Both the position numbers and the translations under genes were made by a program. DNA of 64,000 nt from Polyangiaceae bacterium (GTDB lineage: Bacteria; Myxococcota_A; Polyangia; Polyangiales; Polyangiaceae). Under the pieces are notes generated by a model. It did no database searches. It saw only the letters and a list, made by a program, of their open reading frames with translations, and was not told where the DNA came from. The first letter of the stretch is position 1, and every line of letters starts with the position of its first letter. The stretch spans positions 62,001 through 126,000 of the forward strand of contig CANJMI010000013.1 of the NCBI GenBank assembly GCA_947475525.1, given 5' to 3'. Positions 23,639-54,736 of this stretch are shown piece after piece.

Positions 23639-24211
23639 ATGGCGTGCATGGCACTTGGCATCGCGCTCGCTCTCGTGGCGGGCAGCTGCGTGCCTGCCCC
23701 GCTGCCCCTCGACGCGAACGACGGCTGGGACGCCTCCGGGCCACAACGCCACGCGAATGGAGAACACGTCCAAGCCTGGACGGTCCTCCCGATCGCCGAG
23801 GAAAAACGGCAACGGTGGCCGTACGCCGGCGCCGCTTCGGAATGGACCCGCATCCCAGGCCGTGAGCGCTCCGACCACGGCGGGGGCGCCTTCGATCGCA
23901 CGGTGCGCATCGACGCGCTCGCGCAGAGTTACGCGACGCTCGCCGCGACGCCGCGCATTGCCGAAGGCGCTCGCGTACTCGAGGACCTCATCCCAATCGG
24001 CGGCACACGAGCCGTCGCCGTCTACGCGATGCGCAAGCTTCCCCAAGGCGCGTCACCCCAAACGAACGACTGGGCCTTCACCGTGCTCGACCCCGAGTTG
24101 CGCGTAGCCGCGGAAGGCGACCTCGGCGCGTGCGCGCGGTGCCATGCCGACGCCCCCCATGCCGGGTGGTTTGGCCCGCCCGCTCTCACGGTGCCTCCGG
24201 CTACGCAATAA
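23639..24211 (+). CDS. Cytochrome-P460-like haem lipoprotein
   Basis: The short product starts with a hydrophobic stretch ending in LVAGSC, consistent with a lipoprotein signal. A single c-type haem motif CARCH lies near the C-terminus, with a P460-like preceding fold (GTRAVAVYAMRKLP, DWAFTVLDPELRV). The ATG at 23639 gives 190 residues; an in-frame GTG at 23609 is an alternative but leaves almost no space to the divergent neighbour. Most P460-fold proteins bind c-type haem in the periplasm, but whether the special Lys crosslink exists cannot be seen. Redox partner unknown. Confidence 0.7.
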   Translation: MACMALGIALALVAGSCVPAPLPLDANDGWDASGPQRHANGEHVQAWTVLPIAEEKRQRWPYAGAASEWTRIPGRERSDHGGGAFDRTVRIDALAQSYATLAATPRIAEGARVLEDLIPIGGTRAVAVYAMRKLPQGASPQTNDWAFTVLDPELRVAAEGDLGACARCHADAPHAGWFGPPALTVPPATQ

Positions 24212-24335
24212 GTTGCGGACCATGCCGTGACCGCGACCCGAATGCCCGCCTCGCGAAGGATGGGCACTGCGCCGGCCAAGGGATGTGGCAGACGCCTCAT
24301 GCGATTATTCCGTGTTTTTGCTACGAAAGCGGAAC

Positions 24336-24351
24336 TGGCACGCCGGATGCT
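24336..24351 (+). promoter_or_regulatory. Sigma-54-type -24/-12 promoter
   Basis: TGGCACGCCGGATGCT matches the sigma-54 consensus (TGGCACG, four bases, TTGCW) at all but one key position. The invariant GG (24337-24338) and GC (24349-24350) are separated by exactly 10 bases. It points rightwards, predicting a transcript start near 24362, where no protein gene begins. The downstream hairpin series and terminator suggest it drives an RNA. Enhancer sites were not identified. Confidence 0.6.
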
Positions 24352-24361
24352 TTAGGTGAGT

Positions 24362-24786
24362 TCGACGTTCGCTGCAGTGGGCTGCAGCCCGAGGGAAATC
24401 CCTCGAAGGACGTTCGCTTAGCGCTTCCACTTTCTTTCCTAGCTTGCACCTTCCCTATCTTGCACCTCGCGCCTCCGCTTTTTTTTCGAGGCGCGCTTGT
24501 TTCTTTGGCGACCGCGGGGCCAGAACCCCGCGTTCTTCGACTCGCTTGGCTTAATTCTTTTATTCAACGGGCTCGTCGGCTCGTTTCTTCCGTTCTCCTC
24601 TTGCCTCGGTTGTTCTTTTTCTGACGGAGTCTTTCTTTTTTTCGTTCTCCTTTCTCGTTCGGTTTGATCCTCGATCCTTCTGTTTGGTTCGTTCGATTTT
24701 CCTCCCGTTCGACTCGAGGCGGCTCTCTCAGTGAGCTCGCCGAACACGCGGCGCCAGTGGGCGGTAGCCGCGTGTTTTCTTTTTGT
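24362..24786 (+). ncRNA. Candidate structured non-coding RNA, about 425 nt
   Basis: The segment begins just after the sigma-54 element and ends at an intrinsic terminator. No convincing gene is present on either strand; the open frames are Lys/Arg-rich or Ser-rich by composition only. Perfect hairpins are visible at 24371-24377/24382-24388, 24390-24395/24400-24405, 24468-24475/24488-24495 and 24513-24519/24526-24532. The first two are flanked by direct copies of GACGTTCGCT (24364-24373 and 24409-24418). The body is strongly pyrimidine-rich on the plus strand (24430-24710). It resembles no known RNA family I could name (not tmRNA, RNase P, SRP or 6S by signature). Confidence 0.5.
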
Positions 24787-24789
24787 TTG
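24743..24789 (+). terminator. Intrinsic terminator upstream of tRNA-Arg(ACG)
   Basis: A perfect 10-bp stem, AACACGCGGC at 24743-24752 with GCCGCGTGTT at 24767-24776, and a 14-base loop are followed by the T-rich run TTCTTTTTGTTT. It reads as a rightward rho-independent terminator. Its upstream transcript can only be the candidate RNA or read-through from the haem lipoprotein gene. Confidence 0.75.
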
Positions 24790-24883
24790 TCGTCTGAGTG
24801 CTCGCACAAGGCAGATTCGATAACGAAGCGCCAAGGCATCCTTGACATCGACGACCGAGGCTCATAAAAGTCGGTCACTGTTT

Positions 24884-24957
24884 GCGCCCATAGCTCAGCT
24901 GGATAGAGCACAAGCCTACGAAGCTTGGGGTCGTATGTTCGAATCATACTGGGCGCG
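24884..24957 (+). tRNA. tRNA-Arg, anticodon ACG
   Basis: The 74-nt sequence folds as a full cloverleaf: acceptor GCGCCCA/TGGGCGC, D-arm GCTC/GAGC, anticodon stem CAAGC/GCTTG with loop CTACGAA, and T-arm GTATG/CATAC with TTCGAAT. The loop gives anticodon ACG, whose first base is edited to inosine by TadA, encoded 1.2 kb downstream. CCA is not encoded. Confidence 0.95.
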
Positions 24958-26113: not shown

Positions 26114-26572
26114 GTGACCGACGAAGAGGCGATGCGACTCGCTCTCGCGGAGGCGGGGGCCGCGGCCGCTCACGGCGATGTGCCGATCGGGGCTATCATC
26201 CTCGACGCGGACGGGGCGTTCGTTGCGAGCGGACACAACCGTCGCGAGGTCGATCGTGATCCGACCGCGCACGCGGAAGTGGAAGCGCTGCGCAGCGCGT
26301 CGCGATTACGTGGGCAATGGCGGCTCGACGACGCCACGATGGTGGTCACGATGGAGCCGTGTCCTATGTGCGCTGGCGCTCTGGTCAACGCACGCATCGC
26401 TCGCCTGGTGTACGGCTGCCACGACGAAAAGGCCGGCGCGGTAGCTTCGCTGTTCGTCATCGGACGCGATCCGCGCCTCAATCACCGCTTTCCGATCACG
26501 GCAGGTGTGCTCGCCGCTGAGTGCGCGTCCTTACTCAAACAATTCTTCCTCGCGCGGCGGGGCGCGAGATGA
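26114..26572 (+). CDS. tadA: tRNA adenosine-34 deaminase TadA
   Basis: TadA converts A34 of tRNA-Arg(ACG) to inosine so that one tRNA reads CGU, CGC and CGA. The 152-residue product has the cytidine-deaminase-fold zinc site: H53 and the proton-shuttle E55 in HAEV, and C83/C86 in PCPMC, with the GHNRR substrate loop. The start is GTG at 26114 since the family begins near MTDEEAMRLAL. The tRNA substrate is encoded 1.2 kb upstream on the same strand. The 3' end overlaps the convergent 26531-27196 gene by 42 bases. Confidence 0.94.
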   Translation: MTDEEAMRLALAEAGAAAAHGDVPIGAIILDADGAFVASGHNRREVDRDPTAHAEVEALRSASRLRGQWRLDDATMVVTMEPCPMCAGALVNARIARLVYGCHDEKAGAVASLFVIGRDPRLNHRFPITAGVLAAECASLLKQFFLARRGAR

Positions 26573-52599: not shown

Positions 52600-54736
52600 C
52601 TTCTGAGCTGCCTATGTGGCAGTGAACGGCGGCTGCTACGGCTGCGGCTCGAGAGGTTCCTTCTGAGCTGCCTATGCGGCAGTGAACGCGAGAGCACTTC
52701 GCGGTTTCTCGGCTGGGGTACTTCTGAGCTGCCTATGCGGCAGTGAACGCGAGAGCACTTCGCGGTTTCTCGGCTGGGGTACTTCTGAGCTGCCTATGCG
52801 GCAGTGAACGTTGCGCCGCAGGGAGCGCGGGAGCTGGTTTACTTCTGAGCTGCCTATGCGGCAGTGAACCTTGCGGCCTACGCAGCGCTCTTGGCCGAGC
52901 TCTTCTGAGCTGCCTATGCGGCAGTGAACCGCGTCGAGCTGCAACGCCAGCGGCCCCAAGTCTTCTGAGCTGCCTATGCGGCAGTGAACCAAGAGAGCAA
53001 GAGAGCGCGGGCGCGCGAGAGCTTCTGAGCTGCCTATGCGGCAGTGAACACCGAGGCCAAAACCTACCGCGCCTTGAGTCACTTCTGAGCTGCCTATGCG
53101 GCAGTGAACGTGTCGTCGGTGTCGGTATCGTCGGTGTCGTCCTTCTGAGCTGCCTATGCGGCAGTGAACGAGTCGGCGCACCGGCGAGCGGCTGCGGCGG
53201 TCTTCTGAGCTGCCTATGCGGCAGTGAACGGCGTGTTTGCGTCGCTTAGTGCCGCGTCAAACTTCTGAGCTGCCTATGCGGCAGTGAACCGTAGCCCCGC
53301 TCGCCGAGGCTTTTTCCACGCCTTCTGAGCTGCCTATGCGGCAGTGAACTCGCTTCGGTCGCCTCGACACGCGAGCCTGGTACTTCTGAGCTGCCTATGC
53401 GGCAGTGAACCGCCGCAGCACGTTCGAGGCGATGGCGCAGGTCTTCTGAGCTGCCTATGCGGCAGTGAACCGGAGCAAAATTCCACGACTCGTGGACGCT
53501 CACTTCTGAGCTGCCTATGCGGCAGTGAACTCGTTTTGGCTCTCGGGCTCGCGCGTACCCTCCTTCTGAGCTGCCTATGCGGCAGTGAACGGTTTCTGAC
53601 TGAGACGGTGCCCACGGATTCGACTTCTGAGCTGCCTATGCGGCAGTGAACGCTGCCGAATTTCTGCTCGTGCGGATCGCATACTTCTGAGCTGCCTATG
53701 CGGCAGTGAACGACCCCCCGGAATTGGGGAGCCGTCGCGACGTCTTCTGAGCTGCCTATGCGGCAGTGAACTCGTCCAGGACGCCTACGAGGCGGACTTC
53801 GTACTTCTGAGCTGCCTATGCGGCAGTGAACGATGGGGGGGGCGGTCAAGGTCGTCCTCTTGGACTTCTGAGCTGCCTATGCGGCAGTGAACAAGGGTCG
53901 AGGTGGCGCTTTAGTCCCGTACTACTTCTGAGCTGCCTATGCGGCAGTGAACACATGGCCTGTGCTGACACGTGAAAGGGTCGAGCTTCTGAGCTGCCTA
54001 TGCGGCAGTGAACTCCGAGTCGCCCCGGTGCCGTGGCCGAGTACGACTTCTGAGCTGCCTATGCGGCAGTGAACAAGGCTAAGGTTGGTTTCCAGGGTTT
54101 CAACCTCTTCTGAGCTGCCTATGCGGCAGTGAACGTTCAGGCCGCTAGCGACTGCCGTGGCCGTGTTCTTCTGAGCTGCCTATGCGGCAGTGAACTTCCA
54201 TTGTCTTCCCTCTTTCACGAGCCGGATCTTCTGAGCTGCCTATGCGGCAGTGAACCTTGCGTAAGCGGCGGCGGCTTCTTTCCTGGCCTTCTGAGCTGCC
54301 TATGCGGCAGTGAACACGTAGACGCCGACGCCAGTTCTCGCGACCGACTTCTGAGCTGCCTATGCGGCAGTGAACTTCTCGTCGAAGTGACCTACCAGCT
54401 CGCGTGACTTCTGAGCTGCCTATGCGGCAGTGAACAGAAAAGAAAAGTCTTTCCTTCTCCGTCCGTCCTTCTGAGCTGCCTATGCGGCAGTGAACTTTTG
54501 TCGCGGTCGTGATTGACCGACGGAGAGCTTCTGAGCTGCCTATGCGGCAGTGAACGCGAAAATGTCGCAGTCATCCGCGAAGACTTCCTTCTGAGCTGCC
54601 TATGCGGCAGTGAACACGCGACGTAGGCTTCTCGCGAGAGCCTGTTAACTTCTGAGCTGCCTATGCGGCAGTGAACCTCTGGGCCTGGGTTGAGCCGGTA
54701 CAGTTTCGCTTCTGAGCTGCCTATGCGGCAGTGAAC
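52600..54736 (-). CRISPR. Type I-F CRISPR array, 36 repeats and 35 spacers
   Basis: Thirty-six 28-nt repeats are spaced by 32- or 33-nt spacers. On the minus strand each starts GTTCACTGCCGCATAGGCAG and ends CTCAGAAG, the type I-F form. All copies look identical except the first on the plus map, 52600-52627, which has one substitution (TATGTGGC), marking it as the old, trailer-end repeat. The leader is on the other side at 54737. The spacer is 33 nt at 52688, 52749, 53350, 53591, 53832, 53953, 54014, 54135 and 54616; the others are 32. Two neighbouring spacers (52688-52720 and 52749-52781) are identical. Spacers are mostly G+C-rich. Confidence 0.98.

Follow-up and report, generated by a model that had tools for sequence, protein, structure and literature searches.

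A predicted sigma-54-dependent small RNA gene conserved beside tRNA-Arg(ACG) in Sorangium and other Polyangiaceae, a candidate regulatory RNA

Introduction

What is transcribed from a sigma-54 promoter that is followed by hairpins and a terminator, and by no evident gene? This question is raised by an intergenic interval in the window, i.e., the whole 64-kb stretch of Polyangiaceae DNA that was analysed. The interval has as its left neighbour an open reading frame (ORF) with a CxxCH motif, which ends at position 24211 and gave no Pfam match, and is followed by the gene for tRNA-Arg(ACG) (24884–24957, plus strand). The original prediction proposed a structured RNA resembling no known family. 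To our knowledge, few sigma-54-driven small RNAs (sRNAs) are known, and Pxr is the one that was studied in myxobacteria.

A terminated unit without a reading frame

The -24/-12 element TGGCACGCCGGATGCT (24336–24351, plus strand) shows the GG-N10-GC arrangement and reads TGGCACG-N5-TGCT. It is indeed near-consensus as had been proposed, matching 11 of the 12 fixed positions of TGGCACG-N4-TTGCT and being the top sigma-54 match in the window, and the gene encoding RpoN is present in the host genome. With the start set by sigma-54 spacing and the end by the terminator, a transcript of about 425 nt is predicted on the plus strand (24362–24790), which also carries the elements of the unit described in the following. 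The transcript would begin with a 5' domain (24364–24414), in which an outer helix (24364–24370 with 24408–24414) encloses the perfect hairpins 1 (GCTGCA-GTGGGC-TGCAGC, with UGGGC in the loop; 24371–24388) and 2 (CGAGGG-AAAT-CCCTCG; 24390–24405), accompanied by two copies of the direct repeat GACGTTCGCT starting at 24364 and 24409. By composition and folding, the pyrimidine-rich body (24423–24728) is mostly unstructured; it contains two further perfect hairpins that are not conserved in relatives (CGCGCCTC/GAGGCGCG, 24468–24495; CGCGGGG/CCCCGCG, 24513–24532) and a single copy of the conserved motif GCUUGGCUU (24544–24552). The intrinsic terminator (24744–24789) consists of the stem ACACGCGGC/GCCGCGTGT (24744–24775) and a T-rich tail. 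Thereby, the four perfect hairpins, the direct repeat and the terminator of the original prediction were all recovered.

That the unit lacks a convincing reading frame was borne out as well. The longest complete ATG/GTG ORF within the RNA of the window comprises 14 codons and is not shared, the ORFs of relatives have no sequence in common, and, when close relatives are compared, 72–100% of the indels have lengths that are not divisible by three. A small-protein messenger is therefore very improbable: in many members the loop GUGGGCUGC could serve as the start of the peptide V-G-C, but the GTG is not retained in G064, G034, G070 and G029, the ORFs vary in length from 14 to 117 codons without a common sequence, and most indels break the frame.

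Conservation of the promoter beside tRNA-Arg(ACG)

A DNA search of relatives yielded three congeneric loci. In each of them, a TGGCACG-N5-TGCT promoter is accompanied by a pyrimidine-rich body, a terminator of the ACACGCG type and, downstream, the same tRNA. Alongside, a search for the tRNA only, with inspection of its surroundings, showed that this promoter recurs in most of the other genera; this sampling was extended by 40 more genomes in a second round. By a strict criterion (sigma-54 match at no fewer than 10 of 12 fixed positions, at most 1 kb from tRNA-Arg(ACG)), 58 of 72 loci from 28 genera carry the promoter, compared to 8% of shuffled loci, where a few of the positives are doubtful by their enhancer score (e.g., G110), the better promoter of G079 falls outside the scanned interval and many of the sampled genomes are draft assemblies. 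Counting only loci that were found via the tRNA and are hence unselected for the promoter, including the one of the window itself, 43 of 56 have a strong match. The 14 loci without promoter by the strict criterion include one from the genus of the window (G004), which has a clear enhancer cassette and a degenerate promoter, TGGCATGGCCCATGCC, showing that the criterion misses degenerate members. The original prediction had named orthologous regions with neither the stems nor the -24/-12 element as evidence against it, and the recurrence of the element in 28 genera answers this challenge. Among the carriers in this family of soil myxobacteria are Sorangium cellulosum So ce26, So ceGT47 and So0157-2, with one copy per genome as far as seen. 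Further loci were judged to be chance or coding matches and were set aside (L006, L032, L039, L044, L050, L051, L087, L090, L091, L096–L098, L104, L107 and L108).

The neighbourhood of tRNA-Arg(ACG), which is shared by nearly all members, might suggest that the unit is a leader or precursor through which sigma-54 transcription feeds the tRNA gene. A tadA-like deaminase gene (26114–26569) is located nearby; TadA edits A34 of tRNA-Arg(ACG), i.e., the product of this gene would act on the very same tRNA. However, a strong terminator separates the unit from the tRNA, which has its own sigma-70-like promoter (CTTGACA ... CATAAAA, 24841–24869, plus strand), separate from the sigma-54 promoter. The CTTGACA box is invariant across four congeneric genomes; a strict promoter scan did not list it. 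Moreover, the promoter runs along the tRNA strand at 29 loci and opposite to it, facing away from the tRNA, at the other 29 (n = 58), marking it as an independent transcription unit. Finally, the anticodon stem of the tRNA varies between genera, whereas the motif in the RNA is constant, for which reason pairing of the RNA with the anticodon arm was rejected as well. The leader reading is thus largely refuted and we regard it as hardly tenable. The linkage of tRNA-Arg(ACG) to a tadA-like gene seems to recur, as ORFs ending in RDxRLNHRF are found near the tRNA at L083, L084 and L088.

A two-site cassette upstream of the promoter

Upstream of the interval that had been described originally, and missed by it, lies a cassette of two sites (24204–24247). 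Site A is the conserved inverted repeat CGCAATAAGTTGCG (24204–24217, plus strand; family consensus CGCAAANNTTGCG); the ORF with the CxxCH motif and site A overlap at the stop codon of the former. Site B is CGACCCGAATGCCC (24234–24247, plus strand; consensus CGACANNGATGCCC). In an independent best-match scan, B starts exactly 30 bp after A in 19 of the 27 first members, as it does by coordinates in the window, and B is separated from the -24 element by a variable stretch (67 to 137 bp). A looping activator of the NtrC type would need fixed spacing between its sites and loose spacing to the promoter, which is just the arrangement observed here. A TATTCC motif between enhancer and promoter (24306–24311, plus strand) is present in many members, not in all.

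The composite cassette score has a mean of 17.3 compared to 12.2 for shuffled upstream regions, and reaches at least 14 in 49 of 58 promoter loci compared to 9% of the shuffles. Across 14 genomes, the cassette pattern matched this promoter in nine, and the four other places that it matched look like chance. Furthermore, an order-wide scan for the cassette together with a GG-N10-GC box resulted in six further loci with the layout of the RNA, all of them beside tRNA-Arg(ACG); one of these, G073, was already in the earlier set and had gone unrecognised. Judged by its sequence conservation, the cassette is a probable dedicated enhancer. Taken together with the promoter and the terminated non-coding unit, these comparisons leave little doubt in our view that the locus is a genuine gene for a sigma-54 sRNA, as far as sequence can tell.

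At several loci of the same order (L079, L076, L078, L035/L072, L081 and L082, around position 1500), another layout of a sigma-54 RNA gene was observed. It comprises TGGCAC-N6-TGCT followed by hairpins whose loops are rich in C (CCCTCCCC, CCCCCCCC), with a T-run at several of the loci, spans about 100–220 nt and has no cassette with A and B at 30 bp. The neighbouring gene at L081 encodes a sigma-54 activation domain together with a Fis-type HTH, an arrangement that recalls Pxr and its regulator. In a search of the order with the RNA model, the top matches outside the family were of a different layout.

Structure of the predicted RNA

Across members, the predicted RNAs are about 180–440 nt long, and a GC-rich hairpin followed by a T-rich tail closes almost every one of them; in the Sorangium counterpart (L085 and L088) the terminator is GCGCGCGG. 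Over 33 RNAs, the folding signal is concentrated at the terminator end (last 60 nt, mean z -3.60) and weak in the first 80 nt (mean z -0.73, with -2.3 for the window and for its closest relative), and the body gives none (mean z -0.03 compared to shuffles). For the transcript of the window as a whole, folding exceeds that of shuffles only marginally (z -1.67).

Hairpin 1 has a conserved loop, UGGGCUG, on a stem that varies. Given the structure that we specified, rather than one recovered from the alignment, its stem shows eight double-changed, compensatory cells, a value that was reached in 0 of 500 shuffles, and slid controls pair worse. RNAalifold did not recover hairpin 1 from a plain MAFFT alignment, because the register shifts and the spacing is variable; within the genus of the window, the pairing register already moves by a few bases. 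The outer helix and hairpin 2 can be seen by inspection in several genera with differing sequences (e.g., CGTCGTTCG/CGAACGACG in G002 and GCGTCGGCGA/TCGCCGGCGC in G066), where the outer helix is persuasive in individual genera; as a set they did not beat the shuffles (outer helix, mean of 7.0 compared to 6.5 pairs). The null used for hairpin 1 in this comparison retained its first conserved bases and is conservative. Recurring structure is thus claimed for hairpin 1 and the terminator only, as predicted from sequence. The structured RNA proposed originally was only partly right, and its chain of hairpins was not supported: recurrence is limited to the 5' hairpin domain and the terminator. The body shows no structure above the level of chance and neither of its hairpins is conserved, for which reason a heavily structured RNA was rejected. 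In the genus of the window and a few others, GUGGGC occurs in the loops of both the 5' hairpin (24371–24388) and the terminator (24744–24775); the remaining genera have a different terminator loop.

A pyrimidine-rich body with a repeated word

The proposed pyrimidine-rich body of about 280 nt was confirmed: in the window it is 73% pyrimidine over 280 nt, making it the most biased stretch of this length. In 33 RNAs, the 8-nt word CUUGGCUU occurs 34 times compared to 1.1 expected copies, with 0 to 4 exact copies per RNA (present in 22, absent from 11). Similarly, there are 24 copies of GCUUGGCUU (0.4 expected) and 16 copies of GUGGGCUG (0.2 expected). What exceeds chance by far is the recurrence, next to this tRNA throughout the family, of the promoter, the upstream cassette, the loop motif, CUUGGCUU and the terminator. 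Compared to shuffles, the shorter words CCTCC (35 versus 18.6) and TCTTC (80 versus 43.6) are enriched and GGA is depleted (71 versus 94). AAGCCAA, which is complementary to most of the motif, is present in none of the 33 RNAs, and its absence would help to hold the CUUGGCUU word single-stranded. The predicted unpaired probability of motif-type sites is 0.46 compared to 0.45 for the rest of the body, i.e., there is no gain in accessibility. At L139, the locus of G004 with the degenerate promoter and the intact cassette, the body is expanded from about position 821 by near-tandem CTTCCTTCGCCCTGCTCTG-like units.

Comparison with known RNAs

A search against Rfam 15 at gathering and relaxed thresholds resulted only in tRNA, CRISPR repeats and tmRNA, with one sub-threshold match on the tRNA itself. 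The Infernal/Rfam search suggested originally thus matched no family. The CRISPR matches include an array of 36 CRISPR-DR4 repeats on the minus strand (52600–54736). In a literature search that fell short of most subscription literature, no paper on a sigma-54 sRNA of Polyangiaceae or Sorangium was found. The claim that the RNA resembles no known family therefore holds at the level of the family, but not at the level of its kind, since sigma-54 regulatory RNAs, including Pxr, are already known. The unit shows the features of a sigma-54-dependent sRNA, namely a -24/-12 promoter directly before a conserved, non-coding and terminated unit and conserved upstream enhancer sites. The RNA represents an apparently new family within a functional kind that is already established.

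Pxr of Myxococcus xanthus (Cystobacterineae) is likewise myxobacterial and non-coding, with a predicted sigma-54 promoter, an upstream enhancer region and a last stem-loop needed for accumulation, which we count as a further likeness. That the RNA is the Polyangiaceae version of this developmental sRNA is suggested by the shared sigma-54-type promoter, yet it is scarcely credible. Pxr is a compact RNA of three stem-loops, whereas the RNA described here reaches about 440 nt, is largely unstructured and repeats CUUGGCUU. Pxr is encoded between nla19 and a NADH dehydrogenase gene (PMC5568312), while the neighbours here are the ORF with the CxxCH motif, tRNA-Arg(ACG) and the tadA-like gene. Moreover, SL3 of Pxr, taken from primers (PMC5684412), was not matched, with up to three mismatches allowed, in any of 379 genomes from the phylum including the one of the window. 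This sample contained no positive control, and the negative result does not establish in which genomes Pxr is lacking.

In Vibrio, Qrr has a sigma-54 promoter and two upstream palindromic sites TTGCAWWWTGCAA for LuxO, a member of the NtrC family (PMC10162802). The predicted RNA shares such a promoter and two upstream sites; in contrast to Qrr, the half-sites of site A stand in reverse order (CGCAA-N3-TTGCG) and do not form a LuxO site, and the second site and the RNA both differ. GlmY/GlmZ of enterobacteria combine the use of sigma-54 with protein titration. They are found in another neighbourhood, and no Rfam match to them was obtained here. QseF response-regulator sites are described at the sRNA promoter (PMC8745638).

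In its supposed mode of action, the RNA is most like CrcZ/CrcY of Pseudomonas and Azotobacter, whose sigma-54-type promoter is equipped with sites to which the NtrC-type activator CbrB binds; CrcZ is induced by CbrB and sequesters Hfq/Crc (PMC6292655). Both systems have short repeated words, which in CrcZ/CrcY are decoy binding sites. However, those words are A-rich Hfq/Crc sites, whereas the member RNAs here contain 7–18% A, and unlike in the hosts of CrcZ/CrcY, Hfq was not found in ten Polyangiaceae genomes carrying the family.

Proposed function

We consider the locus, with somewhat better than even confidence, to encode a sigma-54-controlled regulatory RNA of a Sorangium/Polyangiaceae family for which titration is the likeliest action. 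An NtrC-type enhancer-binding protein would bind to sites A and B, about 55–170 bp upstream of the -24 element, and would loop to the RNA polymerase-sigma54 complex at the -24/-12 element. In the presence of the signal of this activator, the RNA would start at 24362, and transcription would stop at the strong hairpin at 24744–24789. The 5' hairpin would probably protect the end or display the UGGGCUG loop, and the body displays one to several CUUGGCUU words. Most likely, these words would titrate a protein that binds RNA and whose usual targets are mRNAs, in the manner of CrcZ with Hfq/Crc. A role in starvation or development might also be supposed. A decoy is favoured since an RNA of this kind, driven by sigma-54 from an enhancer of its own and repeating short words in an unstructured body, would work most like CrcZ. 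A decoy of the Csr/Rsm type with repeated GGA was rejected in view of the depletion of GGA.

As a close second in this comparison, base pairing is a reading to be taken seriously, to which we give a lower probability. The RNA might act in trans and independently of Hfq, with CUUGGCUU, CUUCGCUU and CCUCC pairing with the purine-rich translation-initiation regions of several mRNAs, i.e., repeatedly with AAGCCAAG-type sites. The enrichment of CCTCC and TCTTC and the C/U-rich stretches seen in several genera downstream of the 5' hairpin are consistent with this, and the sigma-54 sRNA Qrr1 was shown to repress a specific regulator post-transcriptionally (PMC10162802). However, identical short words amid drifting sequence suit protein sites at least equally well, and titration of a protein stays the preferred reading.

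Implications

The conserved and apparently single-use enhancer means that the activator could be identified by DNA pull-down. Similarly, the 8-nt repeated word could be used directly as bait to capture a new RNA-binding protein or a set of targets in organisms in which no Hfq was found. Carriers occur in at least 28 genera and include Sorangium cellulosum, a major producer of natural products. It is conceivable, although we hold it to be rather unlikely, that a family RNA of myxobacteria without recognisable Hfq, a dedicated enhancer-binding protein and CUUGGCUU sites titrating an RNA-binding protein together constitute a new system of post-transcriptional control. If true, this system would stand in parallel to CrcZ-Hfq/Crc and CsrB-CsrA.
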